IMG/VR virus record: IMGVR_UViG_3300035698_021897
Location: 1-63,344 of that record
Length of the DNA: 63,344 nucleotides
From: a virus
Direction: 5' to 3' (one strand)
Positions within the stretch are counted from its first letter, which is position 1. Each line of letters starts with the position of its first letter. Of the stretch, positions 9,118 to 46,070 are shown piece by piece. A program made the position numbers and the translations under genes. The notes under the pieces were generated by a model, which was not told the DNA's origin, ran no database searches, and saw only the letters and a list, made by a program, of their open reading frames with translations.

Positions 9118-9927
9118 TTATCCAGTTATGAAGTCCACGGGAAGTTCGTAACTTCTGAGTGCTTCTTGTTCTACTTGGAGAATTTCTGCATTTGCCTCTG
9201 CAACTATCTGCCCCCCTCGAAGCATTACGCCGCCAGGAAGTTGTACTCCGTCGAATTTGGAAAGGTTCTGACCCCACTGCCTCTTAAGAAGAGCAGTGAA
9301 ATATTCTTTAAAATACCTGTCGTTGTATATCTCAGTGAATATTTCGGGATTTAAACCGACATAGGTTTCAAACATCAAATAATCACCAATATCCAATTCT
9401 TTGCCCCAGTCCATTGCAATATGAATTCTATTTGAAACTTTATTGAATGTTAGTGGTTTTTCTGGATTAAAGAGATCTTGAATTAGAGTGATGTATCTTT
9501 TTGTCGAATCATAGGAAGCCAAACCCAGAGAAGAGTTACCACCCAATCCCCTGTTTAAGCCAAAATAATCAGTAAGAGCCATCTGATATCTAACATCAAA
9601 CATATTGATATTGGTGAAATCAGAGAATTGAAAAACCTTCAATACACTGACGATATCTTTTCCTGTTGGCTGATCATCAGCAGTTGACCCATTAATTGAA
9701 CCAAACGAATTGCTACTGACATACCTGTTAGCAACATCTTGTGCTGTTATTTGATGCCTGAAATATGCCCGTTCAACACCGTCGAAGTGTCGCTCTCGAA
9801 AATATTCAAGTGCGTCTTCTACACGATCCTCGGCCTGTTCGTAATCAACATTTATTTCAATTACAGGCGAGCCGAGTCTTCTATAAGCATAATTAATCAA
9901 ATCTTCCTTCGAGGAGATTTTAGCCAT
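9118..9927 (-). CDS. 13: Neck protein gp13
   Basis: 269 residues, with LINYAYRRLGSPVIEINV, then QAEDRVEDALEYFRERHFDG, typical of gp13, the head-completion protein that binds the portal vertex with gp14. The start is preceded by AAGGAG. A GATACATA octamer sits 19-26 nt upstream. It is the first gene of the neck-terminase-sheath run. Confidence 0.94.
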   Translation of the reverse strand: MAKISSKEDLINYAYRRLGSPVIEINVDYEQAEDRVEDALEYFRERHFDGVERAYFRHQITAQDVANRYVSSNSFGSINGSTADDQPTGKDIVSVLKVFQFSDFTNINMFDVRYQMALTDYFGLNRGLGGNSSLGLASYDSTKRYITLIQDLFNPEKPLTFNKVSNRIHIAMDWGKELDIGDYLMFETYVGLNPEIFTEIYNDRYFKEYFTALLKRQWGQNLSKFDGVQLPGGVMLRGGQIVAEANAEILQVEQEALRSYELPVDFITG

Positions 9928-9958: not shown

Positions 9959-10510
9959 CTAATCTTCTATTTTTTCTTTTTCTAGGAGTTTCTTCAGTTC
10001 TTCGGGCATATCCGGCATAGAGACCTCTACTTGTTGCATTTCTTCGTATGGAATTTGCTCTATGTAATACCTTCTGGTCACTGGATCTGCCGACTCGTCC
10101 GGGTTACTTGCTTCGTAATTTGTAAATCCAGGCATTTGTAATGGACAGTTTAGTCTTGGATAATCCAATTTACTATATTCGCCACCTTCGTTCATCAGCC
10201 AGGTTCCTGGCTTATCTCCGCACCCACAGCCACCACAATACATCTTTCCCTCTTTTACTGTACTTTGCTTGAGATGTTCGCATGGCGGAAGTTCATTACC
10301 ATCCCCCAAACAACTTAAAACTCTAAGTTGTTTTATGGGTTTAGTTGTTTTTTTGTTTGTTATTCCTCGGGAAGCGATCGAGGTTGCGAAACTTTTTACC
10401 ATCGATACCTTGGACTGCCGGCTTTGCTCTACCTGTTTTCTGAATTCTTTTTTCGCTTCCTCGGGGGCTTTTCCCTGATCGTCACCCTTTTTGCAACCAC
10501 AATCACCCAT
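9959..10510 (-). CDS. Small Cys-motif protein, possible zinc binder
   Basis: 183 residues, function unknown. The N-terminus (MGDCGCKKGDD) is Cys-rich and followed by a basic helical segment. Residues about 65-115 carry CLGDGNELPPCEHL, then YCGGCGCGDKPGTWL, a CxxC-type arrangement likely to hold zinc. The C-terminus is acidic and helical (MPEELKKLLEKEK). Proteins with a GCGCGDKxGTWL segment occur beside gp13 in other marine T4-like phages, to my recollection, with no assigned role. It lies between the cysteine-rich tail genes and gp13 and is probably co-transcribed with them. Confidence 0.6.
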   Translation of the reverse strand: MGDCGCKKGDDQGKAPEEAKKEFRKQVEQSRQSKVSMVKSFATSIASRGITNKKTTKPIKQLRVLSCLGDGNELPPCEHLKQSTVKEGKMYCGGCGCGDKPGTWLMNEGGEYSKLDYPRLNCPLQMPGFTNYEASNPDESADPVTRRYYIEQIPYEEMQQVEVSMPDMPEELKKLLEKEKIED

Positions 10511-10522: not shown

Positions 10523-12145
10523 TTATTTTATAAGTATTCTTCTAACCAAAGGAACTGACAGAGGTGTAGTTCTGTCGAGATAAAATCTTAATCCATAGTT
10601 ATTTATATTAGCATCATAAGCAAAATTTTGACCCCACAAATATGTTTTATAATTTATTACTTGTCTACCAAGAGTTTTCGATTCTGGATTTGATGTGTCT
10701 TTACTGCTATAAAAAGTAGAAGACATGATGTTGGTTCCAAAATATCCCGGTAAAATAATTTTCGAAAGTCTTTCTGTTTTATTTACTTTATTATATATAA
10801 CAGTCTTAGTCAAATTATGATTTATAAAAGATAATTCATCTATACTAGGAATATACCAATCATTAAATCCATTTCTGGTTAAACTTCGAATATCATTATA
10901 CAGTTGTGATCTTGGACCAAGATAATCTAAATTATTACCGTATGTGTTATAAAATCCATCATAATATGATGTAGGATATGCCTTCTTCTTGTCGGATTGG
11001 TTAATGGATCTATATAGAGTTCTGGTAGAAAGCCTTGAAACATCGCTAGGATCACCATAAAATCTAGGATGAAGAATAAGCGCCCATTTTCCTGATTGTT
11101 GACCATACCCATAATCTCTAGCAGTGCCAGTTGACAGTGACTTAGTTTTTTGGTTTCTGTATGATATAGTACTTGCACCAGGCTCAAATGCACCAATGTA
11201 AATACCACCTTGATATTCGGTTCCGGTGGTTGGTAAAGTTATCTCGCTAGATTTTCTAGATGGAGGGGTTACTGTTAACGAGCCGAAAGATTTCTCGGGT
11301 GGATAGAGGCCTCCGTTTGTTCCGTCGCATAATGAGGAATTGACTGGCCAGAATCCATTAACTGCGTCACAATCTGATTCAGTTTTCCTGCTGCAACTAT
11401 GCAAAAATTTATCATTCTTAAGGGTTATTTCATAGCAAGATCCGGCAACCCTTTCGCTTCCCGCCAATCCCTCTTCTTGCCCATCATCATCACCAGAACC
11501 AACACATGTAGGCGGGTTGTTTCCATTATAAACATCGTTGCATAATGTGTGGGTAGATGACTCTCTTGTCCCGCCGTATTGACTCGTGTACTCTGTAGTA
11601 GATAAATTTCCGCATTCTAGAGATGTGCAAATATCTTTGCAGATAATATCTCCGGTTATTGGATCCTCGTGACAACAAGAGCCAGGTACTCGTGCATCGG
11701 TTCCATAAGAATTGCACAAATTTCTCAGTTGAGTAACATCAGATAATGGTCCGTAAAACCAATTACCACCCAATCTATTACATTCGCATTGTGATACATT
11801 GTCCTTTACACCAAACTTCGACTCTAGACCTTCGACGCCTGAACCGGAAGTACTATAATAAGGACTACTGTTTCCCTGTGCAGTTATGCTAGATATAAAT
11901 GCGTCATAGTCCGTTTGATTTTGTTTAATATAAGAACACGCACAACATGCACCGGTTAGTCCACGATCTGGGCATTGAATTGAGTTAATATCTTCGGTAT
12001 TTTGAAAATATCCACTTTGTTTATTGCAGTCAGAAACTGTAGTAAGAATTTTTGTTCCGTCAGCAAGACAGCATCCACCCACGGCTGATTCTTCGTTACC
12101 ATAAAATGCAACTGTTTTAATTCTAGATCTGAACTGTGTTGACAT
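10523..12145 (-). CDS. Cys-rich tail protein with DUF1566-like tip
   Basis: 540 residues. Residues about 20-280 hold cysteine-rich modules (AVGGCCLADGTKI, GLTGACCACSYIK, VPGSCCHEDPITG, AGSCYEITL). Residues about 300-540 form a domain with the pattern GFNDWYIPSIDEL, a SSTFYSS segment and a terminal LVRRILIK. That pattern is characteristic of the DUF1566/Lcl C-terminal family, which has a C-type-lectin-like fold. It lacks the collagen-like N-terminus of the next three genes. It overlaps the preceding gene's stop. It probably belongs to the receptor-binding apparatus, being in the place where T4 relatives keep short-tail-fibre and whisker genes. Confidence 0.6.
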   Translation of the reverse strand: MSTQFRSRIKTVAFYGNEESAVGGCCLADGTKILTTVSDCNKQSGYFQNTEDINSIQCPDRGLTGACCACSYIKQNQTDYDAFISSITAQGNSSPYYSTSGSGVEGLESKFGVKDNVSQCECNRLGGNWFYGPLSDVTQLRNLCNSYGTDARVPGSCCHEDPITGDIICKDICTSLECGNLSTTEYTSQYGGTRESSTHTLCNDVYNGNNPPTCVGSGDDDGQEEGLAGSERVAGSCYEITLKNDKFLHSCSRKTESDCDAVNGFWPVNSSLCDGTNGGLYPPEKSFGSLTVTPPSRKSSEITLPTTGTEYQGGIYIGAFEPGASTISYRNQKTKSLSTGTARDYGYGQQSGKWALILHPRFYGDPSDVSRLSTRTLYRSINQSDKKKAYPTSYYDGFYNTYGNNLDYLGPRSQLYNDIRSLTRNGFNDWYIPSIDELSFINHNLTKTVIYNKVNKTERLSKIILPGYFGTNIMSSTFYSSKDTSNPESKTLGRQVINYKTYLWGQNFAYDANINNYGLRFYLDRTTPLSVPLVRRILIK

Positions 12146-15100
12146 TAGATTCCATCCATATTTGGTGGTAATTCGTTATGAGCATTTCTACTCACATATA
12201 TGTTTTCATAGCACATTTCGTCGGATGTTCCGCATAATCCTGTTGGGCAACAATATGCATTATATCTAGAACAGTCACTGTCTTTGTCACATTGTACAAG
12301 ATAAGTAGATAATCGCATCTGATCTAGTCCGGTGAGTGGACTATTATTACTAGGATCGCAATCTCTCCCGCATTGAGTTGTGTTGGATAATATTCTTTCT
12401 GATGTCGGTGTTGTTGGAGTATCTGGACATATAAGTCCCCAGCAATTACCATGAGCAGTTTTAATCGCCTCCGGCGTCGCCGGCGGCACTCCCTGCCCGG
12501 CCGAAAATTCGGTATTGTTAGGCCCGACAAAATTCCTGCTATAGTCGGTACAACCTTTACCGAATGCACATTGAGCAGGGGCGGTCGAATTTCCACGGCA
12601 TTCACATTTAGTATAGTCCCCGCCGCCAGAAGCCTCCGAGCAGTCGGGCCGACTGCATCTACATGAGAGGTTGCATAGATCCATTCTAGCCGGATCGAAG
12701 TCGCTCCCCCACTCTGGATTATCCCGACAGGAATCATCGCCGGCCGGCGTACTGCTTGGAGTTGGTGTCCTATAGCCGTTTGAGCATATATTGTCTTGAT
12801 ACTCACACGGGCACGCTTTTAGATCCGTGTTGCCGCCGCCTAAGCATTCTCTCCATCTGGGATTCCCCCCATCGAAATCATCATCCCAAAATTCTCTTTC
12901 CGTATTTCCAAGCAGAGGGCATTGAATGCATGTTTTTAATTCCTGCATCAATCTCTTTGGTGAACTTGTTTTTTCGTCAAATTCCTCATCAGATATGAAT
13001 CGCCCCATTCCATCATCAAGTCCCTTACATCTATCACATTGAGGATCGGCCGGCGGACCGGCCCAGTTACCACCTTCGCATATGTTGCATATACAATTGT
13101 CTGATAAGGTTTCCACGAAATCTGGGTTGTCGTTGCGAAACAAGAAATTACAATTCATTGCATCTTTAATATACTCTTCCGCATCGGGGAGGGTTTGCGC
13201 GCCGGGAAAGTAACAAGATACACAAGCCGCGGTTTCGCAGCACCCTCTCGCTTCGAAATCACAGTTGTCTTGAAAGATAGGCGCAGTGAGGGATGCAATC
13301 TCTAGGAAACTTCGCACCTTGGTTGCAAGTTTAATTTTTTCGGCATGCATAATTGATATTAATAGTTTGCACTGCGAGATCTGCGAAGAATTGGCACTGC
13401 AACTTCCTGTTCCGAATTCATCATCAGCACATATTGTATTACCAAGACTCCTATCCCATTTAAATGGTGTATCCGCATCGTTGGCATTTAAAGTTGAGTG
13501 CAATGTGTTAACATTATTACATTTCTCCCACTCTTCATTAGTTTTCCAATTCTCCGGAACCGGAACATCGGTGTCATCACTTGCATTCTCGCATCCATAC
13601 TCAAACCTGCCTGTAGTACATCCTTCACCGTTAGGATCAGTAACACACGCACAAGGAATTCCTGTACAGGATGAACAGAAACTTACATCAGAGAAAGATC
13701 CAATGTTGTCTCCTGATCCATCAGGGGAGTTATAGGAATCTCCTTTACTTCCCGCAGTGCAGAATGCTTTCTCCTTATTTCCTTCTTTTAAGGTGTTGTA
13801 CACATCCTCATTAACAAGTCCACAAGATTGGCATAATTGACACAGTTTGTTATCTAGGATCTCGCTTGAAATTTGATCTTTCCATTGACTGTCATTGTCA
13901 TTCATTTCGCTGCATATATTATCAAGAATTCCCGGAGTATCATTACCGTCGCCGTCGGTCTGCGTGACCATCTCCAAAATAGTTGTATTCCCATCTAGTG
14001 TAGGACAATCAGGATTGACTCCAGTGTCTATTCCGACACAGTGATTGCCATAGGCGCACAATGCGCCAGCCGCGGTATAAAACTCCTGCTTGGCCGCGGA
14101 CCATGCGTCCACACCTCCGTCGGCCGACGCGGAGGCGAGACTAATATATTCATCGGGACAATCGCAACCTTTTGGATCTAGAACTTCGAAGTCCAAATAC
14201 ATAGGCCTAATATTATCGTCCACCCAGTCTCTAATTCCTTGGCCATCCCCATCGCAGAAGCATAAGGCGCTCAATTCGCGTGATAATAATTTCTTTATTA
14301 TACGAGAAAGTACACCCCAGTTATTTTCATTAAACCCAGTAATGGGTATGTCAACAACAGGGCAACCTTCAACACCCTCTTGGTTTAAACACCCGGAGCC
14401 TTCACGGCGTTGGCAGAATGGTCCGTTCTCATTTTCAAGTCTCTCCTTAATTTTTTCCCCAACTTCTTCCATAATTTTGTCGAAGCCTGCATCAAAGCCG
14501 TCGCAGAACGCTGTTGTATCGGAATTTGGGCAGAATTCCCCCGTCATATCCGTGGAGCAGCCACTGTTGATCCCGGCCGAACCGAGTTGACACATATATT
14601 GTGCGATAACTCTATCGTGGTCATCAAGCCAACATTTCCAAAAATCAGAAGTTCTGTCTTGACATTCTTGACATTTGTTCCAAATCACGCCATTGTCATT
14701 AATTGCCTCGACCAGATCAGCACCGCACATCTGCTGACGAACGCATGCGGATTTGCATAATGGTGGACTACATATAGGTGCATTATTTGGATTCGATGAG
14801 CCGGCAGGAACGCAGCATAGATTTAAGGCAGTTTCGTTGTCTCCGTCGCCATTGCCGTTTCCGCCGCCAGGGCCCGGCCCGCCGCCGCCGCCACCGCCTC
14901 CAATGTCTCCGCCAGGGCCAGGGTCATCGGTGAAACAGCAGTTGGGATCGGAAATGCTCTCGCAGTCACATCCCATTTCATCCTCAAGTTTAACATATCC
15001 TTCGGCGCATTCGGTTTCTCCGGGCAGGGATTCGTATGTGGCGAAACCACATGTCACATCTCCATCAGGCACATCTGGGTCGTCGGGAACGCATCGACAC

Positions 15101-17424
15101 TGACAGCAAGTTATTGTTGGCGGACAGTCAGGTTCACCCTCCTCACCGCATTCTGGGCAGTCTGGCTGATCCGGATCCGGTCCGCATTCGACTGCGCAGG
15201 TTTCAGGAGAACACTCGGTATCGTCTCCTTTATATTCTCCAGCAAATTGAGTGCATACGGATTGTGGAACATTGAAACATATTGGTGTTCCTTCGCTATT
15301 CTCTGTACAGCATGCACCAACGCCTGGACACTCAGAATCCGCACATTCATTAATTCTCCATACATCACCTAATGTATTGCAGTCTGCCTGAATGACATCA
15401 TCATTACATTGGTATCCATTTCCAGATGAAAATTTACAGCAAGATCCTATTGGGGGTAATGGGCAGGGATTGGAATCGCATGGTACTTGATCAAACCAAA
15501 TACCATTGCACTGTTCTTCGTATGTCTCGTTGCACTGGAAAGTCCCGTCTGAATTTTGAGTACAGCAAGCAAATTTCTTCGGACATGGGTCGTCCTCGCA
15601 CAAGATTGCTGCGTCTTCGTCGTTAAATCCTTGCCAACTTCCATTCATCGCATCACATTCAGACTCTGATCTTGCATCAAGACAAGTATAACTGTCATTC
15701 GAGTTATTATAAACGCAGCATGCTGATCTTTCTTCTAAATCATCAATACAGCAATCTATATTTGCACACTGAGTTGCGTGTCCCATAAAGACACCGCCCC
15801 TCTTTCTGCATTCAAAGGCATATACTGAATCTTCACAGTATCGTTCCTGTCCCTCTGCACCAGTAAAACCAAAGCAGCAAGCACCTTCATATTTTACAAC
15901 TTCACAGCAATTTACTGATCCGCATGTGCCATTGACGGAAATACCATCCAGAATTTCTTCACATTGAATTTGAGTGTATTCTCCTAGACATTCTCCATTT
16001 TTACAGCACGCTAAAGGGTTTGCGCATGGATCATAACAGAATCTGTTTCTGTTATCTCCATTATTTGGATATGTGACAGGATCGTCTTCGCCGGTTCCAT
16101 CTCCGGGTTGTTCAGTATCGGGCCCGTCAGGACCATTAAAACTCTGCTCAGTAAGTCCTTCTGCACCGCAAACAATTCCTGGCCAATAAGTTCCGTTATA
16201 GAATTCGCATTCTTCCGGACTTACATCTTCTGCACATTCTCCTTGAGAACAGCAAACTCCTTTCCTTTCGCCGCAACCACTTGCACATGATTGGAATGCA
16301 GAATATTCTCCACCAAATTCCTGAATGCATGTAAATTCATCCACAAAATCTACACAGTCAAAGCCACCAGAAGTAGATGTAATGCAACAAGATCCGTATG
16401 ATCCAGAATTTTCACAACCCGTAACACCGTAACCTCTTGCTGCAAATGTACCAAACCATCTATAATCAGATGTTGAAGTGGATAAATCTCTGGTTGCAGT
16501 AAAGTTTACAATGTCGGTTCCGCAACTAAAGAAATCTTCTTTTTCTTCAAAGTAAACATTAGAAGGAAACTTCCAAAAAGAATTGCCATTTACTACTGCG
16601 GTAAAACTTATAATTTGTTCGATATCATCATTTGATTGATATCCAGTAAAGCCCTGTATCCCTACACCTGGCCAGGTTGCATTAATATTAATCATACTAC
16701 CTGACGATACATCTAGATATATTCCTTCACCAGCGGCCACATCATCTGCTCCATTAGGAGGCCCTCCGGTTATACCAATAATTTCCGTAGGAGAAAATGG
16801 ACCGACAGATTGCATTCTATCGAGAGTTTTGAGTGCAGATCCGCTATCGCTCGTAGATCCCATAAAATCTAAAGCAATTCTTTTTCTGTTTGTATTTAAT
16901 AATGGTGAATATAAATGTAAGTTATCAGCAGTGGTAGAATGGACTGTGTTTTCTGTAAAGAGATACGCTATACCACTTGCACCACTAAAACCAATCAATG
17001 CTTCTTGTGATGAGAATGTTGCACCAATAATTACTGATGACCCGTCGCCAGTCACTTCTATTATACCATCACCTGTTATAGAAAGAAATTCAAATGTATT
17101 TCCCTCAGTCAATCCGGTTGGATAACTCGTAAATATCTGAGTCCCGTCTCCTAAATTCTCTCCGGTAACCTCTCCTGACCAAAATCCTTGATTTCCCGTC
17201 AATCCATTGATGGTTATTTCTGTGCCGTCGGTAAGAATTAATATTAGTCTGCCATCATCAGCGTATCTCTTGTTGAATGGCCAAGGCCCAGATATACCAG
17301 TTGCACCAGTAGGTCCAGTAGGTCCAGTATTTCCTGTGACACCGAGTGGTCCTGTGGGCCCTACAGGACCAGTGGATCCTGTAATAGAAGATATTGAATT
17401 TATTGAACTGCTACCTCTACTCAT
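12145..17424 (-). CDS. Giant Cys-rich collagen-like tail protein
   Basis: 1759 residues from the ATG at 17424, which has GGAGG upstream and forms an ATGA overlap with the previous gene; a longer reading from 17451 is unlikely. Domains: a collagen-like stretch at about 15-50 (repeats of GPTGPTGATG type), a globular region to about 330, cysteine modules at about 331-832 (GACC...C...C.GG.F.G...C, for example GACCFGFTGAEGQ and GACCTENSEGTPIC), a Gly/Pro/Asn/Asp linker at about 833-858, and a second cysteine-dense half to about 1755. By hand count it has about 140 cysteines, near 8 percent. It has no lectin-like tip, unlike its neighbours. It is probably a long fibre or whisker-like virion component. 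The repeats resemble those in Phycisphaerae surface proteins. Confidence 0.6.
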   Translation of the reverse strand: MSRGSSSINSISSITGSTGPVGPTGPLGVTGNTGPTGPTGATGISGPWPFNKRYADDGRLILILTDGTEITINGLTGNQGFWSGEVTGENLGDGTQIFTSYPTGLTEGNTFEFLSITGDGIIEVTGDGSSVIIGATFSSQEALIGFSGASGIAYLFTENTVHSTTADNLHLYSPLLNTNRKRIALDFMGSTSDSGSALKTLDRMQSVGPFSPTEIIGITGGPPNGADDVAAGEGIYLDVSSGSMININATWPGVGIQGFTGYQSNDDIEQIISFTAVVNGNSFWKFPSNVYFEEKEDFFSCGTDIVNFTATRDLSTSTSDYRWFGTFAARGYGVTGCENSGSYGSCCITSTSGGFDCVDFVDEFTCIQEFGGEYSAFQSCASGCGERKGVCCSQGECAEDVSPEECEFYNGTYWPGIVCGAEGLTEQSFNGPDGPDTEQPGDGTGEDDPVTYPNNGDNRNRFCYDPCANPLACCKNGECLGEYTQIQCEEILDGISVNGTCGSVNCCEVVKYEGACCFGFTGAEGQERYCEDSVYAFECRKRGGVFMGHATQCANIDCCIDDLEERSACCVYNNSNDSYTCLDARSESECDAMNGSWQGFNDEDAAILCEDDPCPKKFACCTQNSDGTFQCNETYEEQCNGIWFDQVPCDSNPCPLPPIGSCCKFSSGNGYQCNDDVIQADCNTLGDVWRINECADSECPGVGACCTENSEGTPICFNVPQSVCTQFAGEYKGDDTECSPETCAVECGPDPDQPDCPECGEEGEPDCPPTITCCQCRCVPDDPDVPDGDVTCGFATYESLPGETECAEGYVKLEDEMGCDCESISDPNCCFTDDPGPGGDIGGGGGGGGPGPGGGNGNGDGDNETALNLCCVPAGSSNPNNAPICSPPLCKSACVRQQMCGADLVEAINDNGVIWNKCQECQDRTSDFWKCWLDDHDRVIAQYMCQLGSAGINSGCSTDMTGEFCPNSDTTAFCDGFDAGFDKIMEEVGEKIKERLENENGPFCQRREGSGCLNQEGVEGCPVVDIPITGFNENNWGVLSRIIKKLLSRELSALCFCDGDGQGIRDWVDDNIRPMYLDFEVLDPKGCDCPDEYISLASASADGGVDAWSAAKQEFYTAAGALCAYGNHCVGIDTGVNPDCPTLDGNTTILEMVTQTDGDGNDTPGILDNICSEMNDNDSQWKDQISSEILDNKLCQLCQSCGLVNEDVYNTLKEGNKEKAFCTAGSKGDSYNSPDGSGDNIGSFSDVSFCSSCTGIPCACVTDPNGEGCTTGRFEYGCENASDDTDVPVPENWKTNEEWEKCNNVNTLHSTLNANDADTPFKWDRSLGNTICADDEFGTGSCSANSSQISQCKLLISIMHAEKIKLATKVRSFLEIASLTAPIFQDNCDFEARGCCETAACVSCYFPGAQTLPDAEEYIKDAMNCNFLFRNDNPDFVETLSDNCICNICEGGNWAGPPADPQCDRCKGLDDGMGRFISDEEFDEKTSSPKRLMQELKTCIQCPLLGNTEREFWDDDFDGGNPRWRECLGGGNTDLKACPCEYQDNICSNGYRTPTPSSTPAGDDSCRDNPEWGSDFDPARMDLCNLSCRCSRPDCSEASGGGDYTKCECRGNSTAPAQCAFGKGCTDYSRNFVGPNNTEFSAGQGVPPATPEAIKTAHGNCWGLICPDTPTTPTSERILSNTTQCGRDCDPSNNSPLTGLDQMRLSTYLVQCDKDSDCSRYNAYCCPTGLCGTSDEMCYENIYVSRNAHNELPPNMDGI

Positions 17425-20384
17425 AGTAATACATCTCCTCCACAAGCACATGGACCGGTTCTGTTACCGCAGTCCAATATTGACGGATACGATTGTGGGT
17501 TGTAGCAAAGGGGACTTGCAACATAAATGGGTATTCTCTTGATAAGTCTCACCTGTGCCTTGTCTGTTGTCTTGTTCATACTATGTATCTGGCCGGAACT
17601 GGACAAAGAATTAAAATCTTGACTAAAAGCGTAATATCCACTAGCAGCTTTGTATGCAAGTTCGTGATCTAACATCCACGAAGCTTCGTTATTGTTATCG
17701 GGTTGACCAGTCCAATCAGAAGGCCTTCCGAATGGAAAATCCGCATTACCAGTATCTTTAATTTTACCCGAAGTTGATGTCCAGTAAGTTCCTGCCATAC
17801 CTAAGTCAATACCCATAGTATTCTGTAGGTAATATAGATGATTCATTTCTGTTAAACTCGGAATGTACCATTCACCATCAACTGTACCCATAGCAGTATT
17901 TGAATTCTGCTCATTCCACATAGTTTGATATGAATCTTGGAATTGTGACTCTAAGTTCTCTATTTCAGTTTCAGTTGCTTCGTCGGGCCAAGGATTGAAT
18001 GATATATCCACCCACCTATTATATGCTTCGGGGTCAAAGCCAAACGCATTTTCCCAGAACCACAAATTATTGTCAGAATTAATAGTTGTTAATGCTGGAT
18101 CTGCATATAGTCTGGTATTTAGATACCCATCCACTGGGCATGTAGCCCAATTTTTCAGAGGATTCTCTAATACTTCAGTACCTATTCTGTTTGCAAGTCC
18201 CCAATGCATTTCTGCTGAGGAATCCTCGCGGCTTTCTTCGTCTGTATCCTTGACAACGATAGCCCATCTTCTGTGAATACGATACCCCTGTCCATATATT
18301 TGAGTTGCAAATTCATTATACTTAGCACCATCATCTGCATTGTAATTATCTGTGCTATTATCGAATGGATTATTCAGGAGTAATCCTAGTTCTGAAAGGT
18401 GACCTTTTTTATAATTTAATTTAAGATCAGTGGTGTTATTCCCAATTGTTCGTGTATGAATTGCTGGCAAGTGATCACACGGAGCCACTGTGTCATATCT
18501 ACCGACAGTTGGTTGGTAATTGATCACACTGAGGTTCCCAACGATTGATAACTCTCTAATTGTGCTGCCTTTTGCTCCGATCGGATAATTTGCTGCACCG
18601 CATTCATTTGCTGGGTAACCGAAATATCCAGCATATTTTTCATTAGGAGAAATTTCTGCTCCAAGATCATATGTGTGGCATGGATTTAAACTAATCTGAC
18701 ACGATTCATTAACCGTATCAATGCAGTCGGGATCGCCTGGATCGCAGGGGTCCTCGCAGCATCTTCTGAGGATTCCATTACCCGAAGGATCAAAACCAAC
18801 TAAGACTTGATCATTTACATTTGGATCATCGTCAGAACTATGACAAGAACTTCCTGCTCCTTGATAATGTCCATTAGCCTGGTAACATTGAAGTGCGGTG
18901 TAGTTGTCGTAGCAGTTTGTTCCGGGAAGTTGTGGATTATCCTCGGTTGGATTCTCGGTGTTAATGCAGCATGCGCCTGGGAATGAATCGAGGCAACAGT
19001 TATAACCATTTGGGTTATTCTGAAAATTATATGGATCGCAATTTTTCCCATTATGAAAAATCCCACCAACTATGTCGCAATTTTCTTGATTAAACGAGTA
19101 ACAAACACCATTTACACAACAAGCGCCATTTTGACCGGGACAAATATCTGGACATTCGCCCAGTGCAGCACAAGTGACTTTGTTCTCAAAGGCAATACCG
19201 TTAAATTTCTCGCACTTCTCTAAACTGGTATCGGTACATGTTCCATTAAGACAGCAAGGAACTGTATCTTGGCACTCGGGCCCTTCATCCCTCAATGCGC
19301 ATGCAGTTGTTCCGAATGTGCCAAGAATAGACTCACAATATGATTTTGTCATATAGTCTACACATTTTGTTCCGTATTTTCCGGTAATTAGATCTGGTGA
19401 TGAACAGAAGCAACAAGATCCCACAGTATTATTAAACAAAGACATAGTAATTGTATGGGGTTGATGTCTTTCAAATTCAAATTTAGTGGGAGTGTCATCA
19501 CCACCAGTTCCTATATCAAGATAAGGCTTTAATTGAAATGTTCTGTATACTATTGATTGTTCTGATAATGTTATATTTTCTTGATACAAATCATTCTTGG
19601 GTAAAACCCAACCGTGTATATTTCCGCCAGTCACTTCTAAACTCTGGTTAAATCCAGCATAATCATTAAAACTAGGACTTCCTGTAAGCAGAGATCTTTC
19701 TGCGGGCATAATCCAATTGTTTGCGAATGAAAGGTCCCAATTTCCTACCCCACCATCATAGTAGTTGTCTGAGTTAATTCCGGTTTCTATCATTCTGTCC
19801 AGAATGGCAGAAAAAGTATTTCCGCTGAATGTCGTTAATGCATCTGTTGAAGAAGAAGCACTGTTACCGGCATTCAAATATACTAATCTTCCTGCTTGCC
19901 CCAGTTTTCCGGGAAGGGTTATTCCTTCGAGAATAATCATTTCTTGAGTCACGCCCAGAACATTTACTCGATTTCCTTGAACCCGCAGAGTTCTAAACTG
20001 AGCAATTTTGGGTGAGTTTACGGAATTAGTATTGGTACTAACAGAAGCATCTCTGAATCCTTTGAAGATCTTTGCATGATCTGTTAACTCTTGATTTTCG
20101 TTTGTTATAGTATAAGAAAAATCAGTAGGAGTACCATCAAAATTAGTTCCAGTGAAACCTATAAGTTCAAATGTAGTACCATCAGTAAGAGTAAATGTTA
20201 TTCCTTTTATCACACCACTTTCAAAGGAAACTGCACCCGACAGTCCATTACCATTAGGACCAGTACCTCCAGTTCCGCCTGTTTCTCCCGTAGCACCTGT
20301 TGCACCGGTAGCACCTGTAGCACCAGAGGGACCTTGATTTCCTTTGATTACTCGTAAAAGTCTACTACTTCCTTGAAATGCCAT
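17421..20384 (-). CDS. Collagen-like, Cys-rich fibre with lectin-like tip
   Basis: 987 residues. Domains in order: a short hydrophobic N-terminal segment, a collagen-like run at about 15-45 (GATGATGATGETGGTGGTG), a globular region, cysteine modules at about 320-550 (SCCFCSSPDLITG, GACCVNGVCYSFNQENC, GACCINTENPTED), and a C-terminal DUF1566-like domain at about 580-950 with GEWYIPSLTEMNHL, TYWTSTSG and a terminal VRLIKRI. The plan matches the next protein. It is a candidate receptor-binding fibre: the collagen-like part would trimerise the shaft and the lectin-like domain would bind the host surface. It is coupled to both neighbours by overlapping stop and start codons. Confidence 0.62.
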   Translation of the reverse strand: MAFQGSSRLLRVIKGNQGPSGATGATGATGATGETGGTGGTGPNGNGLSGAVSFESGVIKGITFTLTDGTTFELIGFTGTNFDGTPTDFSYTITNENQELTDHAKIFKGFRDASVSTNTNSVNSPKIAQFRTLRVQGNRVNVLGVTQEMIILEGITLPGKLGQAGRLVYLNAGNSASSSTDALTTFSGNTFSAILDRMIETGINSDNYYDGGVGNWDLSFANNWIMPAERSLLTGSPSFNDYAGFNQSLEVTGGNIHGWVLPKNDLYQENITLSEQSIVYRTFQLKPYLDIGTGGDDTPTKFEFERHQPHTITMSLFNNTVGSCCFCSSPDLITGKYGTKCVDYMTKSYCESILGTFGTTACALRDEGPECQDTVPCCLNGTCTDTSLEKCEKFNGIAFENKVTCAALGECPDICPGQNGACCVNGVCYSFNQENCDIVGGIFHNGKNCDPYNFQNNPNGYNCCLDSFPGACCINTENPTEDNPQLPGTNCYDNYTALQCYQANGHYQGAGSSCHSSDDDPNVNDQVLVGFDPSGNGILRRCCEDPCDPGDPDCIDTVNESCQISLNPCHTYDLGAEISPNEKYAGYFGYPANECGAANYPIGAKGSTIRELSIVGNLSVINYQPTVGRYDTVAPCDHLPAIHTRTIGNNTTDLKLNYKKGHLSELGLLLNNPFDNSTDNYNADDGAKYNEFATQIYGQGYRIHRRWAIVVKDTDEESREDSSAEMHWGLANRIGTEVLENPLKNWATCPVDGYLNTRLYADPALTTINSDNNLWFWENAFGFDPEAYNRWVDISFNPWPDEATETEIENLESQFQDSYQTMWNEQNSNTAMGTVDGEWYIPSLTEMNHLYYLQNTMGIDLGMAGTYWTSTSGKIKDTGNADFPFGRPSDWTGQPDNNNEASWMLDHELAYKAASGYYAFSQDFNSLSSSGQIHSMNKTTDKAQVRLIKRIPIYVASPLCYNPQSYPSILDCGNRTGPCACGGDVLL

Positions 20385-23302
20385 TAATTATCTCTCAATA
20401 CTGGCGAAATTTGCCAAGTTTTTGCTGTTTGAATATCAGGTGATGATCCGGTTACTCCGTAAAGTCCATCACATCTAACTAACCTAATAGGTCTAACCTT
20501 ATATTTATTTTCAGTTCGATGCTTTCTTGCGGATTTAAAATTCTCCAAAGATCCAGATTCAGAGAAATTTATAGCCCATGCAACTGATCCAGGTCCATCA
20601 ACCTCAGATACTCCGTTCGTGCCTTCACCTGCCGAGTTCCCATTAAACGATCCCGTGGAAGACCAATACCATCCAGTAAAAGGTGTTCCTCCGTTCATTA
20701 ATATTTCACTGTTAAGATCAAAAGCATAAGGAGAATTACCATCTCGAACACAATGTGATGCCAAGAACCCCAATTCATCATGACTGGGCATGAACCAAGG
20801 GGATACTGTCTGTGGATTAGCAGTTGCTCCTTGTGTTCCAGATGTCAAGCCATCAGGTAAGAGCCTAACGGCTCTAGCAGCGGTGTAGTGTCCCCCAGTG
20901 ACTGCTGGACCGAACATAGAGGAATCAAAATTTCCTCGGGATGTAAAATTGATGTATTCTGCGTTGTCTGCGTTGACCATTCTGATTGTATTATAGAGTC
21001 CCCAGTTTCTTCTCCAGAAACCATTCGGGCTGAGTTTACTCACGGAAGCAATTCTAAGATTCCAGTTGGTCCCGAACGATCTTGCATATATGCAAGATGC
21101 GATTGATCCATTTTCTAAGACACATCCTTGATTATCGCCCGAGACACCAGAATTCCAATATCCTTCTTTATATTTTCCTATATCACTATATTCTTGATCA
21201 TAAATTCCATAATTTACTATTCTTGGATTTTCCATATCAATACTCGGACCCCACGAAGAGCCATAATTAGACCAAACAAAACCTTGAGTTACTCCTCTTC
21301 CGGGTGAGGATAATATACCAGAACTATTTATTGCCACTGGATCTAATGCAACAATCATAAGATATGAATCGGGTCTGCTTTCATTTTCTAAAGGATAACT
21401 ATTAGAATTTATTTCAGCACATGTTAGATATTCATCTCCTGATGTGCCAAAACCGTAACCATGATGATCATATGGTGTTCTGTAAACATCTGCGGTAATT
21501 TCACTCATAGACATATAAGAACCAGTAGTTCCGCAGATATTGTTGCGATTTACATCTTGTCGGGTAAACTGAGACTTTCCGCCAATAACTTCAGAATAAT
21601 ATGGATTAAATATACCCACAACAAGTCCACCTGCAAACAAGTCTCCGGGCTGGACTAACTGATTATCTACAATTCCGAAGCAAGAAACATCATTTGTGTT
21701 TGGGCAACTCATTTCAGCACATGTTGATCCAGAACCAGCATATAAACCTCCCGCATCTAGGCATGTATCAAAATTCTGATTATCAGCACATACGCTTTTA
21801 CTCAAGCAGCAACCACCGGTTCCGGTTGAACATATGTTATCATCAAAATAATCGAGACACGAAACCCCAACTCCTCGGAAAAATCCACCTTGCTCATTGC
21901 AGTCTGCTTTGGTTTTTTGTTCGCACACACCAAGACCATTACAACATGCACCTATACCCACTGCGGCTGAAGCACAAGAAATGCTCTTACAGTCTTTGCC
22001 ATTGCCACCGAATGTTGTTGATAGTCCGTCTTGATTATTTAAAGATAAGCATTGATCGCATGATAGTATATGGCAATTGCTTGTATTATAAATCTCATTA
22101 TAGATGCAGCATGGGCCCAATTGGTTGCATATACCTTCACCTGTGTTGCCTGTATTTCCGCATGTTGTTCCTACTCCATGAAAGAATCCAGTACAACCAC
22201 CGATGGAAGATTCTGTGCATAATCCATTACCCTCACAGCAAGCACCAGTAACTTCGACTGATCCGGATTGTGACTGTCTATTAAATGGATTATTGGATGC
22301 TAGAGAAAAATCTTCCAGATCATTACAACCAAATGCGGTATTTCCGTTTGGTAGATTATCGCCCCACTTAACTAAGTTTCCGTACCACTGATTCGGAATC
22401 CAAAAGAAATTTATAATATCAGTACTTCCACTGAAGCATGGTACTTTACCAAAGGGAAATATTACATTACCGGAAAATCTTTGAGTGATAGGAGTAGTTC
22501 CGGTTGCTCCGTTTACTATAAGAGTAAAAGAAGAACCGTACTGTTGATTTTCTGGATTTTGTATATTGAATAAAGCGGGACAACTTGGATCACATCCATT
22601 TGCTTCTAGATCAATTTTAAATAACTTTGCCTCTTCTGAATTTATATTAAACTGATAACCAAGACTACCTTCTATACTATCTGCCCCAGTCAAAGTTATA
22701 CCCGTAAGAGTTATTTCTCTTGCGGTTTCTCTATAATCTTTTACTTTTATTGCAAGGGAACTATGGTCTGGAGTATACCGTGTATTGTCTATTGATATTG
22801 CATCATTCGATGATGCAATAAAAGATATAAGTGAATTTTCTAGTGTAGTTCCGCCTACATTCAGATATCCGTTTTCTGTATTACCAGTATCGTCAACTGT
22901 TATAATTATTTCGTTGTCTGTTTGAGTCACATCAACCAAATCACCGCTAGTTAATGTATTTCCTCTAATTGTTCTTAAGGTAATACCAGAAAGGTTTGAA
23001 GCAGAAGAAAGGAAAGTAATACCAGTTCCTCTATTGTCTCCAGTAATACCAACAAGGGAAGGGCCGCTTGGTCCTCGTACCGCAGATCCGGACAAGACAA
23101 ATGATCCATCAGTAAAAGTTATACCAATAACATTTAATGCTTTGTAATTTGACATTGCGGAAATACCGATTCCGGTATTTCCCGTTGGGCCCAAAATACC
23201 TGGTCCAGTATTACCAGTTGGTCCTGTATTGCCAATGCTTCCAGTTGGTCCAGTCGCAGCGGTAGCCCCTAATATGGATATTCTACTGCTACCGTAAATC
23301 AC
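20384..23302 (-). CDS. Collagen-like, Cys-rich fibre with lectin-like tip
   Basis: 972 residues, starting with GTG that overlaps the previous stop and has GGAG 8 nt upstream. Domains: collagen-like at about 12-50 (GPTGSIGNTGPTGNTG), a globular region at about 50-345, cysteine modules at about 350-540 (GACCEGNGLCTES, GACCNGLGVCEQK, GGCCLSKSVCADN), and a DUF1566-like domain at about 550-954 (WFMPSHDELGFL, GWYWSSTGSF, VRPIRLVRC). It parallels the 987-residue protein downstream, with low identity outside the shared motifs. It is probably an adsorption fibre. Having several different tips in tandem suggests more than one receptor or a hetero-oligomeric fibre. Confidence 0.62.
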   Translation of the reverse strand: MIYGSSRISILGATAATGPTGSIGNTGPTGNTGPGILGPTGNTGIGISAMSNYKALNVIGITFTDGSFVLSGSAVRGPSGPSLVGITGDNRGTGITFLSSASNLSGITLRTIRGNTLTSGDLVDVTQTDNEIIITVDDTGNTENGYLNVGGTTLENSLISFIASSNDAISIDNTRYTPDHSSLAIKVKDYRETAREITLTGITLTGADSIEGSLGYQFNINSEEAKLFKIDLEANGCDPSCPALFNIQNPENQQYGSSFTLIVNGATGTTPITQRFSGNVIFPFGKVPCFSGSTDIINFFWIPNQWYGNLVKWGDNLPNGNTAFGCNDLEDFSLASNNPFNRQSQSGSVEVTGACCEGNGLCTESSIGGCTGFFHGVGTTCGNTGNTGEGICNQLGPCCIYNEIYNTSNCHILSCDQCLSLNNQDGLSTTFGGNGKDCKSISCASAAVGIGACCNGLGVCEQKTKADCNEQGGFFRGVGVSCLDYFDDNICSTGTGGCCLSKSVCADNQNFDTCLDAGGLYAGSGSTCAEMSCPNTNDVSCFGIVDNQLVQPGDLFAGGLVVGIFNPYYSEVIGGKSQFTRQDVNRNNICGTTGSYMSMSEITADVYRTPYDHHGYGFGTSGDEYLTCAEINSNSYPLENESRPDSYLMIVALDPVAINSSGILSSPGRGVTQGFVWSNYGSSWGPSIDMENPRIVNYGIYDQEYSDIGKYKEGYWNSGVSGDNQGCVLENGSIASCIYARSFGTNWNLRIASVSKLSPNGFWRRNWGLYNTIRMVNADNAEYINFTSRGNFDSSMFGPAVTGGHYTAARAVRLLPDGLTSGTQGATANPQTVSPWFMPSHDELGFLASHCVRDGNSPYAFDLNSEILMNGGTPFTGWYWSSTGSFNGNSAGEGTNGVSEVDGPGSVAWAINFSESGSLENFKSARKHRTENKYKVRPIRLVRCDGLYGVTGSSPDIQTAKTWQISPVLRDN

Positions 23303-24498
23303 TAAGAAGCTCCGTTAATTGCTGTTTCCAATATTACTATTCTTGAGATAATATCATCCAATGTTGATGATACATTAGAATATGTATTCCCTAATGCGAG
23401 GGTGGTTAGGGCATTAAGATCATTTACTACTACATTTTTAGGAATACTAACACCAACAACATCCCTTACTTTTATGATTGTTTTGAAGGATGGAGTAACT
23501 GTCGTACCTAAAGAGTTAAATGCAATTGAACTGTTGTCGATTATTCGAGGAACCATAACTGATTTTATTGATGCTGCTTGTACAGTGCCGGTAATTGTGC
23601 CGTTAATATTAGTTATTTGTACTGGGAATGTTGCATCTTGTGAAAATTGAATCGCCAAAGGAGACATTTCCACATTCGCCGACCCGGCCGATCCGGATTT
23701 AATTTTGCCCGATGTATATATGTCACCGTTTGGTCTTTTTTGTGTTATCGTTGCATTTATCATCGAAGAAGTTATTTGAATATTGATTAACTTAAGAGTT
23801 TGTATAAACCCAAATCGAAGTCCAGCGAATGTGTAATAATCAGGATAAAGAGCAACATCTAGATCTGTGGGGTTCGTCGTGGCTGTGGCATTTTCCCATC
23901 CATTAGGTGTTACAGATGACTCTGGGATCTTCATAAAAGATCCAATAGGCAAAGTACTTTGAGTCTCTGCTATCATATCCCCGCCTATTTGATACCCAAT
24001 ATAGTTTAATACTTGGTAGTTATAGGAACCGGCCGAGTCTGACATTCTTTGCAATATGGGTTTTGCGATTGTGCCAGGTTCTGATGGTGCTAGATTCATA
24101 AATCCACCAGAAACTCCAGTACTCAGAAAGAATATATCATTTCCACCTGAAGCACCAGATGTTATCCCATAAACATCTTCGTTGTATTCAAAATTACTTT
24201 GTGGGTGATTCATTATGCCGCGTAAAACTACAGTCAAATTTCCTGTTACAGTATCAATAGATTCTACAACACCAACGACTTCTGAATTTTCATTGTTATT
24301 TGCTTGAGATCTTCTATATGTGCCTGTAGTTCCTAATGGGGCCGGCTGAAATCGTATAGCATCGCCATTAGTGATTCCTGCATCTAGAGTATAGAAATCT
24401 GACGACGATTCCAGATTTAAAACTAATCTAGAAGCCGGTCCATTTGGGTTCTGGGTAACATTGCTACCCTGTAAATTTGAACTTGCGCTACAACTCAT
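23302..24498 (-). CDS. Probable fibre or baseplate structural protein
   Basis: 398 residues, beta-rich, low in Cys except near the N-terminus (MSCSASSNLQGSNVT). It contains segments such as VVGVVESIDTVTGNLTVVLRG and a C-terminal helical region (STLDDIISRIVILETAI), which could be a trimerising coiled coil. I do not recognise a named family. It lies between the gp10-like 841-residue gene and the collagen-like fibres, overlapping the latter by one base, so it may be an adaptor between baseplate and fibre. Confidence 0.5.
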   Translation of the reverse strand: MSCSASSNLQGSNVTQNPNGPASRLVLNLESSSDFYTLDAGITNGDAIRFQPAPLGTTGTYRRSQANNNENSEVVGVVESIDTVTGNLTVVLRGIMNHPQSNFEYNEDVYGITSGASGGNDIFFLSTGVSGGFMNLAPSEPGTIAKPILQRMSDSAGSYNYQVLNYIGYQIGGDMIAETQSTLPIGSFMKIPESSVTPNGWENATATTNPTDLDVALYPDYYTFAGLRFGFIQTLKLINIQITSSMINATITQKRPNGDIYTSGKIKSGSAGSANVEMSPLAIQFSQDATFPVQITNINGTITGTVQAASIKSVMVPRIIDNSSIAFNSLGTTVTPSFKTIIKVRDVVGVSIPKNVVVNDLNALTTLALGNTYSNVSSTLDDIISRIVILETAINGAS

Positions 24499-24500
24499 TC

Positions 24501-27026: not shown

Positions 27027-27045
27027 TTATTGATTCCTCTAGTTC

Positions 27046-27053
27046 TATGTATC
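27046..27053 (-). promoter_or_regulatory. Candidate late promoter GATACATA
   Basis: GATACATA sits 20-27 nt before the 841-residue fibre gene, with a GAGG ribosome-binding site between. It matches the octamers before gp13 and the gp8-like gene. Confidence 0.35.
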
Positions 27054-27054
27054 G

Positions 27055-27762: not shown

Positions 27763-27772
27763 TTAATTTCTC

Positions 27773-29584: not shown

Positions 29585-29610
29585 TTATGTTCCAATCAAT
29601 CCAGTCTTTA

Positions 29611-29618: not shown

Positions 29619-30885
29619 ATACTCCTACGCAACTAAATCCGGGATCTCCGCACGCAGATATACCATCATTGGGATTTAGTGTCAGGCCTGCATTTTTAGG
29701 AGACAGTTCCAAGAAAGGCAATATATCTAGATCGCCGAAATCTGGAGTCACCCCAGAAGGAACAATAAATGCCCATACTGGATGCTTATGGGATGGCGAA
29801 TTGTAGGTATAACCGACTCCATAATGAGTGTTTGTCAGTGCTGCACCGGAACACCCAATACATGCATTTAAGTCAACGGTAGTTCCCATGTAATAACCAA
29901 AATAGTTTTCTAGTACCGGTAATGTTGAATATGGATCAAAATCAGAAGTAGATCCGCCAATAGGAACATAATCATCTATGGTTTTCTCAAAGAATGGTTT
30001 TAGTCCAGCAGGATGCAATACATTTAATAGAATATCTGAATACTGATCATCATCTCTTCCTACTTTAATCAAGTAAGAATAATCTTGATACCACCAGCCG
30101 TCTCTCAGAACTGATCTGTTTAAATACGATCCACCCAAAGAAGAAATTTCTTCGTATGATCCAGTAGAACCATTTTCTAATGATCCGAGTCCGGAAAATC
30201 TACCACCATTAAGTCTCATTATATATTTTTTAGGGTAATCTATTCCTATATCAGAACCAGAGGCACCAAATCCAGTTACACCATACAGTGTTTTGAAAAA
30301 GTATCTGTAAGAATTTTCATTGCCTTTTCTGTGATAAAACTCAGTTCTTATATTCCTTACAAAATTTCTAAATCTTGCTTCGTCTTGTGCAATATTTCCT
30401 CTGTTTTCTATTTTTTCTTCAGGAAATCCAGCAACATATGCAAGAGCAATTTTTTTCAGGAATATAATTTCTGTATCATCTAAAGCATAAAGGGATTGAA
30501 AATCCTCTAAGTCTGTGTAATAACCAGAACCACCGGGTGCATTTTTGCAATATAACCAATTATAATAATTTACTGCTAAATCCACAAAATTAGCAGGAAG
30601 ATCTGAATCTCTTTCTAAAATCCACTTTGGTATGATGTGAGTTATGTCAAAATTATTATAACATTGTTCACCATTAATGGAAATGAGATCATTGTCGTTA
30701 TTTTCAGTGTCCGGAAAATCACCATCCGGCCCATCCGGTTGAAATTCGCCGGGAGGATTGGATGGTCTGGAAGGAGTACCGGGATCAGATGTCAAATCAG
30801 GCGGCAATTCTGTTACTTTTAGAAGTTTGTCGCCGTCAGATCCGGGTTTATTTTGATTTCCATTTGTTGGTATTGGACCAAGCAT
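29617..30885 (-). CDS. Baseplate wedge protein, gp7-like
   Basis: 422 residues. The N-terminal 75 residues are Pro/Gly/Asp-rich and probably disordered. The core (ILERDSDLPANFVDLAVNYY, then RFRNFVRNIRTEFYHRKGNE, then YRYFFKTLYGV) resembles the wedge segment of T4-like gp7 homologues in marine phages, which positions the wedge arm on gp6. The C-terminus carries CIGCSGAA and CGDPGFSCVGV, again Cys-bearing, around a WAFIVPSGV segment. It overlaps the gp6 stop by one base. Confidence 0.55.
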   Translation of the reverse strand: MLGPIPTNGNQNKPGSDGDKLLKVTELPPDLTSDPGTPSRPSNPPGEFQPDGPDGDFPDTENNDNDLISINGEQCYNNFDITHIIPKWILERDSDLPANFVDLAVNYYNWLYCKNAPGGSGYYTDLEDFQSLYALDDTEIIFLKKIALAYVAGFPEEKIENRGNIAQDEARFRNFVRNIRTEFYHRKGNENSYRYFFKTLYGVTGFGASGSDIGIDYPKKYIMRLNGGRFSGLGSLENGSTGSYEEISSLGGSYLNRSVLRDGWWYQDYSYLIKVGRDDDQYSDILLNVLHPAGLKPFFEKTIDDYVPIGGSTSDFDPYSTLPVLENYFGYYMGTTVDLNACIGCSGAALTNTHYGVGYTYNSPSHKHPVWAFIVPSGVTPDFGDLDILPFLELSPKNAGLTLNPNDGISACGDPGFSCVGV

Positions 30886-32711
30886 TAGTTAGGAAATTCC
30901 TTTTGTACAGTAACAGCAAATTCGAAATTACTTAAAAGTTCTTGTTTAGCAATAAAGGAAAGTTTTTTCGGTGTAACTGTCATAGTAAACTGATCCGTCA
31001 ATACTTGTGGATCTATTATAATGATTCCTCTTTCATAATTTACTTTTCCGACATTCTCTTTAATTGTAACGAGAGTATCTAATTCTATCCTGTATGCATT
31101 CAACTGACCGTAACCTGTATCACTATTGAAATCTGCGGGATTTGTAGAATTTCTTACTTGGATATCATCATAAGGTATTCCTGTATCGGGATTTATAATT
31201 GTACTTTGTGTAGGTTCTGTTATAACTGTAAATGAAGAATTCTGAAGAATTGGATTTTTGACTAGTATTTGTCTTCCGTTAGAAGTTATTTTTTGAGAAA
31301 TATTTAGTGTGGTGCTTATCTGCGAAGGATCCACATTCAAACTAGGATCGACTGAAGATATACCAGTGACTAACTTAGAAAGATCTAATTTGTTATTATA
31401 AGATCTTTGGGATGTGTTATATTCTTCGTTTAGATATGTCAAAATCAAAGTTCTTAGTTGATCTGCACTTGAGTTTGTTTGAGTGTCATCGAATGTAACA
31501 GTCATTCCTATTCGCAGAATTGAAGAAACTGCTCCCACATATTCCGGTAAAATCGAAACAGTCATTTTCCGCTGCAATTCTGATATAGCAGTTTGAACAT
31601 CAGTTATATCTGGCTCAATAGAAGCAGATCCCTCGTCGCTGTTTATAAGCGAAACAAAAACCCTACCATAATATGGCGGATCTTGCTCTTCCCCTCCCCA
31701 TACAGTAAATTTGTAATCAGAATTCTCTAAGTTTTCTCCTAAAGATGTGTTACCTATTATTGCAATTGCATCTTGCTTTGTGACTGCTCTGTCCTGTGCG
31801 GCAAAAAACTTAGGAGCAAAGAATTTTATGGATTCTATATTAGGATCCGTTGCTCCGCCTTCGCTTAGACTTTTTGTCTCGATGATTGTGTTAGTGTTCA
31901 ACTCTGTAGCGGAAAAATTAGATCCGAAATTACCAACACCATTCCCTAATTCACCAGAACTTGTAATATAACTTATTCTAACCTGAGTACCCTCTGGAAG
32001 TGCAAGGCCTGCTTGTCGATCAACATCAGTAGCATAATTTCCACCGAACACAACAAAGAATCCAGCATCAGTTCTCTCTAGGAAATATATTCTGGATGTT
32101 GCGTCGATATTTTGGTTTATACTACCAGAAGAAATCCACTCTACGAATTTTGTATCGTCTGGAGTCTTCACTTCAACTAAAAGAGAATTTATATCAATAT
32201 TTACGGTAGAAATAAATGCCTTGGTACGATCTCGATTTAAAATGGAAGACACCTTATTGAAAAGTTTATTTCCTTGGTGTACTTCTATAAGAACATCGCC
32301 ATTTTCATCTGTAACATATGGATCTAAAGTATAGAAGGTGAACGAACCTCCGGATTCATCTCTTCCAGTAAATTTATGATACCTACTCAGAACTTTACCA
32401 ACTCCGCCTGACCTGAGAAAAATGGTACTCTTTGCAGATCTTGCGCCAGGTACTGTATATCCTAATGGTTTTGCCAGAGAAATTAAACTTGAAAGTTTTT
32501 GAGCGGTATCGAAAAACATTTCATTTGCTGTCATGTTAGAATAAAAAGCGTAGTATGTTGTATTGTACGCTAAAATATCCAACAAAGTAGAAGCGGCAGA
32601 CCCTTCAAAATTGTAGTCAGAAAATACATCTTGGGTTTGCAGATATTGCTTGATGCTGTTTTTAATATCATCAAACTCTAGGTTTCCGATTTGAATCTGG
32701 GGATTTGCCAT
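30885..32711 (-). CDS. 6: Baseplate wedge protein gp6
   Basis: 608 residues. The N-terminus (LEFDDIKNSIKQYLQTQDVF, then STLLDILAYNTTYYAFYSNM, then NEMFFDTAQKLSSLISLAK) is unmistakable for gp6 of the J/gp6 baseplate family, which forms the iris-like inner ring of the baseplate. Length is close to T4 gp6 (660 residues). It lies directly after gp25, with which it interacts, and is coupled to it by a one-base overlap. Confidence 0.93.
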   Translation of the reverse strand: MANPQIQIGNLEFDDIKNSIKQYLQTQDVFSDYNFEGSAASTLLDILAYNTTYYAFYSNMTANEMFFDTAQKLSSLISLAKPLGYTVPGARSAKSTIFLRSGGVGKVLSRYHKFTGRDESGGSFTFYTLDPYVTDENGDVLIEVHQGNKLFNKVSSILNRDRTKAFISTVNIDINSLLVEVKTPDDTKFVEWISSGSINQNIDATSRIYFLERTDAGFFVVFGGNYATDVDRQAGLALPEGTQVRISYITSSGELGNGVGNFGSNFSATELNTNTIIETKSLSEGGATDPNIESIKFFAPKFFAAQDRAVTKQDAIAIIGNTSLGENLENSDYKFTVWGGEEQDPPYYGRVFVSLINSDEGSASIEPDITDVQTAISELQRKMTVSILPEYVGAVSSILRIGMTVTFDDTQTNSSADQLRTLILTYLNEEYNTSQRSYNNKLDLSKLVTGISSVDPSLNVDPSQISTTLNISQKITSNGRQILVKNPILQNSSFTVITEPTQSTIINPDTGIPYDDIQVRNSTNPADFNSDTGYGQLNAYRIELDTLVTIKENVGKVNYERGIIIIDPQVLTDQFTMTVTPKKLSFIAKQELLSNFEFAVTVQKEFPN

Positions 32712-33106: not shown

Positions 33107-33125
33107 GCCTTATATAGGTGCATTT

Positions 33126-39890: not shown

Positions 39891-39901
39891 GGAGATAATA
39901 A

Positions 39902-46064: not shown

Positions 46065-46070
46065 TAAAAT

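Follow-up and report, generated by a model that had tools for sequence, protein, structure and literature searches.

Both phages and bacteria are already known to have collagen-like fibres and tips of the DUF1566 or C-type-lectin kind. Since they fold in a reducing cytoplasm, the tail fibres of phages normally contain hardly any cysteine. Legionella Lcl is a trimeric collagen-stalked adhesin whose DUF1566/Lcl_C tip binds sulfated glycans (PMC11162425, PDB 8q4e). In the related pelagimyophages and cyanomyophages, the interval between gp6 and gp13 is a 'host recognition cluster' that holds fibre genes (PMC7029224). Here we analysed this interval in a 63,344-base piece of an uncultured T4-like phage taken from a virus record (the window, meaning the whole stretch of DNA). 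Four coupled genes in it probably encode an adsorption (receptor-binding) apparatus of trimeric fibres with disulfide-stapled Cys-module shafts and lectin tips, directed at a host that is probably a planctomycete.

Gene order of the cysteine-rich cluster

T4-type genes recognised in the window were terminase, gp15, gp14, gp13, and gp6. The nearest isolates are cyanophages and pelagiphages, with identities of only ~28-30% for gp6 and 38-44% for gp13. The Cys-rich fibre-like genes sit on the minus strand between the gp6 block and gp13-gp14-gp15 (Table 1). Elsewhere in the window, eight tRNA genes are scattered over 46070-56736, and the stretch 46892-47752 (minus strand) gave a strong match to Druantia DruA in this phage genome (Pfam PF14236, E 3.7e-22).

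As originally predicted, the three large genes (ORFs of 972, 987, and 1768 aa) are adjacent and have overlapping stop and start codons. Overlaps of 1-4 nt were observed at TAGTG (398/972), TTAATG (972/987), ATGAG (987/1768), and CTAATG (1768/540), the ATGAG overlap falling on the second Met of the giant orf1768. The giant gene likely starts at 17424, not at 17451 where the ORF opens, because an AGGAG ribosome-binding site precedes MSRGSSS, in agreement with the GSS peptides of the two neighbours.

A GSS-containing peptide opens each of the three large proteins and is followed by a short collagen-like stretch, with G-x-y repeats near residues 16-48 in all three. Their PHROG matches were collagen/tail-fibre profiles, none of them named gp12 or wac, and the collagen-like N-termini of the original prediction were thereby borne out. 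In each protein, a domain of about 270 residues lies between the collagen stretch and the Cys modules; that of the giant, beta-rich in its model, showed weak fold similarity to phage spike/baseplate domains (Z 4.2-6.0). A hydrophobic N-terminus or signal peptide is absent from the phage fibre-like proteins.

Table 1. Coordinates of the cluster, its parts, and other features discussed in the text
Feature	Position in window	Strand	Description
gp13 head-tail adaptor	9118..9927	-	T4-type marker downstream of Cys-rich cluster
orf183	9959..10510	-	Small protein, 8 Cys
orf540	10523..12145	-	Cys-rich N part and Lcl_C-like tip; 21 Cys; same operon
orf540 tip	10526..11278	-	aa 290-540
orf1768 (giant)	12145..17424	-	Anchor, collagen, beta domain, GACC modules, Cys-rich C-terminal half; 143 Cys
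orf1768 C-terminal half	12148..14826	-	aa 876-1768; Cys-rich, without known domain
orf1768 GACC module array	15082..16401	-	aa 351-790
orf1768 beta-rich domain	16402..17277	-	aa 59-350; common to giant proteins of about 17 loci
orf987	17421..20384	-	GSSR anchor, collagen-like repeat, domain, GACC modules, Lcl_C tip; 39 Cys
orf987 tip, predicted Lcl C-terminal domain fold	17424..18674	-	aa 571-987
orf987 GACC modules	18675..19424	-	aa 321-570
orf972	20384..23302	-	GSSR anchor, collagen-like repeat, beta-rich domain, 3-4 GACC modules, Lcl_C-type tip; 36 Cys
orf972 tip, Lcl_C-like	20387..21667	-	aa 546-972; Lcl_C in homologues L046, L075
orf972 GACC modules	21668..22252	-	aa 351-545
orf972 anchor peptide (IYGSSR) and collagen-like stretch	23138..23302	-	N-terminal
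gp6 baseplate wedge	30885..32711	-	T4-type marker upstream of Cys-rich cluster
orf1024 Cys-rich insert with GACC module	34516..35448	-	About aa 560-870
Two dockerin type I proteins	50341-51171, 51425-52489	-	One with signal peptide, other with GDSG protease-like motif

Cysteine modules, their conservation, and the tips

Cysteine makes up 3.7-8.1% of the four proteins, compared with mostly 0-2% elsewhere in the window. The giant, for which about 140 cysteines had been claimed, contains 143 (141 from the second Met). In the three large proteins, cysteines recur in a module of about 42 residues (the GACC module) with the consensus G-A-C-C-x4/5-C-x7-C-x3-G-G-x-[FYW]-x-G-x-G-x2-C-x4-C, in which six Cys are spaced CC-x4/5-C-x7-C-x13-C-x4-C without any CxxC pair. 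Strict modules numbered 3 in orf972, 2 in orf987, and 5 in orf1768, whereas composition-preserving shuffles averaged 0.01, 0.02, and 0.23; the observed count was attained in none of the 2000 shuffles per protein. These counts confirmed the predicted repeats, as opposed to cysteines scattered without periodicity. Profile searching detected 3, 3, and 6 modules, respectively, and the phage modules matched no Pfam family. In the structural model of the giant (mean pLDDT 55.3, good only in some modules, up to 86), the modules appeared as repeated beta-beta-alpha-beta units, the last one at pLDDT 82-86. We found no solved structural relative of the module, which does not show the fold to be new.

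CxC and CxxC pairs do occur in the C-terminal half of the giant and in orf1024 (window 34051-37125, minus strand), a phrog_350 tail protein with 45 Cys; given its GACC-containing insert, Cys modules enter the baseplate region too. Short Cys clusters were also seen at aa 200-275 and 340-420 in putative baseplate proteins beside gp6 (27773-29584 and 29617-30885, minus strand), whose Cys counts are equal in locus L005 and nearly so in L007.

Two distinct syntenic relatives were present in IMG/VR, L005 (with near copies L004 and L006) and L007; L002 and L003, taken as first relatives, were dropped, their matches being collagen-only. L005 and L007 share 66-73% identity with the window for the 987- and 972-aa proteins. 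Cysteines were conserved at 36/36, 36/36, 38/39, and 97/104 positions (93-100%), whereas residues other than Cys, Trp, and Gly were 50-70% identical in the same comparisons. Even in a stretch of 36% overall identity, 22 of the 26 Cys were kept.

The tips of orf972, orf987, and orf540 were mutually homologous in iterative HMM profile searches. In the alignment of orf987 tips, 8 of 10 members matched Pfam Lcl_C (DUF1566), at best with 9.5e-9, and so did homologues of the orf972 and orf540 tips; orf987 itself had no Pfam match and orf540 fell below the curated cut-off. No lectin tip was detectable in the giant, so the lectin tips originally proposed hold for these three proteins but not for orf1768. 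An AlphaFold2 model was obtained for aa 300-987 of orf987; its confidence was low on average (mean pLDDT 51.8) but reached 70-88 across a large part of the tip core. Against this model, the top VIA-align match was the Legionella Lcl C-terminal domain (8q4e_A), with Z 12.0 and 117 of 131 residues aligned at 3.2 A, followed by the Bacteroides fimbrial protein 4eps (Z 9.6) and then C-type lectins (Z 5-7), in line with the lectin-like fold expected from the original prediction. With Foldseek alone, no PDB structure matched the models of orf987 and the giant below 0.001, and a PDB sequence search gave no match. Among predicted viral structures, the top Foldseek match (E 1.3e-3) came from an uncultured phage and is named a 'Collagen triple helix repeat' protein. 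VIA, Pfam, and the motif together support a predicted Lcl-type fold for the tip.

Between close relatives, conservation was 0.73-0.74 in the tip and 0.78-0.79 in the modules of orf972, and 0.66 and 0.76, respectively, in orf987. The variable part is instead the C-terminal half of the giant (0.40), which is lineage-specific: outside the window it turned up just in L005 and L016, the closest relatives. The original prediction had suggested modular exchange of tips. With tips conserved to almost the same degree as shafts, recent exchange is not supported, and hypervariability of the tips between close relatives was rejected. Searching 26 viral records including the window, most of them fragments, revealed no reverse transcriptase of the kind that belongs to diversity-generating retroelements.

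Distribution in phages and bacteria, and host clues

Two findings go beyond the original prediction: the trait belongs to a whole uncultured clade, and the shaft module family is common to exported proteins, mainly of Planctomycetota. Searching IMG/VR for gp13 homologues yielded 80 loci, and the 53 with at least 2.5 kb upstream were scored. A Cys-rich protein (at least 3% Cys and at least 250 aa) was encoded upstream of gp13 in 33 of these, and no Cys-rich gene was in view in 20. Examples include a protein of 1943 aa with 196 Cys (L036) and many of 1000-1700 aa. In the clade, the Cys count per protein reaches 217. On the gp13 tree, a quick one with some open forks in which near copies favour clustering, the trait was clustered but patchy (8 changes vs 18.2 in shuffles, with 0/500 as low). 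Equivalents of orf183 (6-10 Cys) lie directly upstream of gp13 clade-wide, with or without giant Cys-rich genes.

By comparison, in eight isolates (Mosig, HTVC008M, S-CAM9, AG-345-F15, S-SRM01, DSL-LC02, Melnitz-3, and S-CAM4), the large fibre/baseplate proteins in view in the gp6-gp13 interval have less than 1% Cys. Searches of 50,697 phage records by tblastn, in which BLAST low-complexity masking may conceal very Cys-rich matches, returned no match for orf972, orf987, orf540, and orf1768 (whole and module part), or for orf1024, orf183, and the 196-Cys protein of L036. The module pattern occurred in 102 stretches over all IMG/VR, at least 47 of which adjoin T4-type genes of this clade; among viruses, the module is concentrated in the fibre region of this clade. 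Another giant Cys-rich type, starting MRT.KTCCCCGD and containing 156-203 Cys, was seen beside gp6/gp25 in four loci of the same clade (L238, L245, L246, and L267). A giant protein at L071 (1141-6342) combines GACC modules with a GCTDPxAxNYNxxA..C motif, and the arrays are therefore mosaics of several Cys modules.

In bacteria, a DNA pattern for the module was detected in at least 118 stretches when one genome per GTDB species was searched. Among the matches listed, 93 of 118 were from Planctomycetota (69 named Phycisphaerae), and 120 of 125 ORFs matching the pattern were Cys-rich. A profile built solely from the window and two relatives, with the selecting core masked in the test, found further modules in 96 of the 118 bacterial ORFs listed and in none of the shuffled ORFs. 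According to a simple hydropathy rule, a hydrophobic leader was present in 60 of 88 bacterial ORFs with the N-terminus in view, compared with 3 of 68 viral ones. The GACC module is thus a bacterial module of exported, and hence probably disulfide-bonded, proteins.

Since Planctomycetota use the type of module found in the shaft in their exported proteins, the host is probably a planctomycete. For the second dockerin protein of the window, dockerin matches were found in 21 of 392 genomes of Planctomycetota, many of which had several. None of 296 genomes gave one in the phylum of a Bacteroidetes genome, and the phylum of a Myxococcales genome yielded 5 of 189, with one match each. Dockerins were not found in the eight isolates, and were seen in just one other clade record. 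Dockerin-like repeats were also observed in or near a clade phage fibre gene, in L056 (5' part) and at 17128-17214 of the same record. A spacer-style search of window positions 20001-40000 against 397 genomes of one Planctomycetota class gave 9 short matches, near chance, and none of the eight that were fetched lay in repeat arrays. Taken together, the dockerins and the module suggest a Planctomycetota host, with a chance that is perhaps even or a little better.

Proposed working, alternatives, and known systems

The adsorption-type function of the original prediction is supported by the position between gp6 and gp13, the collagen-like anchor, and the C-type-lectin-like Lcl tips. The sequences themselves show the architecture, periodicity, conservation, gene position, and module family, and a model supports the fold of the tip; virion location, trimers, disulfides, glycan binding, and host we infer as follows. 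The cluster lies where T4 has its short-fibre and whisker genes. In each large protein, the N-terminal GSS peptide and collagen-like stretch would form the anchor to the virion, the collagen stretch would trimerise, and the beta-rich domain would come next, leading into a stiff shaft built as a chain of compact beta-beta-alpha-beta six-Cys modules. Three disulfides per module might close in oxidising surroundings, either after lysis or in a permissive compartment. The Lcl-type tips of the 972-, 987-, and 540-aa proteins may bind surface or matrix glycans, and the giant may contribute a long variable Cys-rich arm. A more far-reaching version, which we regard as rather unlikely, is that the clade infects Planctomycetota and rebuilt its fibres from the host's exported six-Cys module. 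The fibre would then bind or blend into a module-rich surface or matrix via like-with-like contacts plus the lectin tips, on a disulfide-armoured virion that matures only after release.

The main rival is that the Cys clusters hold metal (zinc, iron, or iron-sulfur) instead of disulfides, yielding metal-loaded fibres. Tailed phages have been proposed to carry iron to host receptors, and the cytoplasm in which the proteins are made is presumably reducing. No thioredoxin was found in the window, and a sulfhydryl oxidase search was also blank, but its control was silent. Although the CxC/CxxC pairs of the giant's C-terminal half and orf1024 would suit metal, the main module has no CxxC pair and is found in bacterial proteins that carry signal peptides and are exported, a setting in which cysteines as a rule form disulfides, and we consider metal binding unlikely.

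It is very improbable that the proteins are not part of the virion and are freed at lysis or put on the host, where they remodel or coat the surface or block superinfection. The residence of the module in exported bacterial proteins and the signal-peptide dockerin protein of the phage would fit such a role, but the fibre-like proteins carry no signal peptide, the collagen/GSS N-terminal anchor is common to the three paralogues, and translation is coupled within a structural operon between gp6 and gp13. Least credible is that these are ordinary collagen-like tail fibres whose cysteines accumulated neutrally as repeats expanded. Many phages have collagen-like fibres, and the trait is patchy on the gp13 tree; however, cysteine is conserved more than any other residue, also at low overall identity, and is scarce in the large fibre/baseplate proteins in view in the eight isolated relatives.

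If the proteins are adsorption fibres, those of the clade, with up to about 200 Cys per chain, make the timing and route of fibre oxidation directly testable. Sharing of the module suggests that genes have passed between phage fibres and the surface proteins of hosts. The module also gives a sequence handle with which to look for Planctomycetota phages, no T4-like isolate of which we found described in the literature. The new element is the Cys-module shaft common to phage fibres and exported bacterial proteins, of which we found no earlier description; a literature search on cysteine-rich phage fibres or the Planctomycetota module returned nothing relevant.

Compared with T4 gp12 and fibritin wac and with the 'host recognition cluster' (PMC7029224), the genes lie in the same structural-gene interval and encode large fibre-like proteins, but no sequence similarity to gp12 or wac was found, and the Cys-rich modules were not seen in the isolates examined. 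The DUF1566 targets of diversity-generating retroelements (Bacteroides phages and gut metagenomes) share the class of C-terminal receptor-binding domain, whereas the tips here are no more variable than the shafts between close relatives, and no reverse transcriptase accompanied them in the mostly fragmentary records. Legionella Lcl has a similar collagen-like N part, and its C-type-lectin-like C-terminal domain shares the predicted fold and the Pfam family, glycan binding being a property of Lcl. What sets the phage proteins apart is their GSS anchor, the added beta domain, and the shaft of Cys modules; in Lcl, the CTD lacks disulfides, and no Cys modules feature in the architecture described. 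The phage protein would work like Lcl but is no bacterial Lcl, as the export signal is absent. The GACC-module proteins of Planctomycetota, in contrast, are mostly provided with signal peptides and have no collagen/GSS anchor, but they share with the phage fibres the six-Cys module by profile, its tandem arrays, and dozens to hundreds of Cys.
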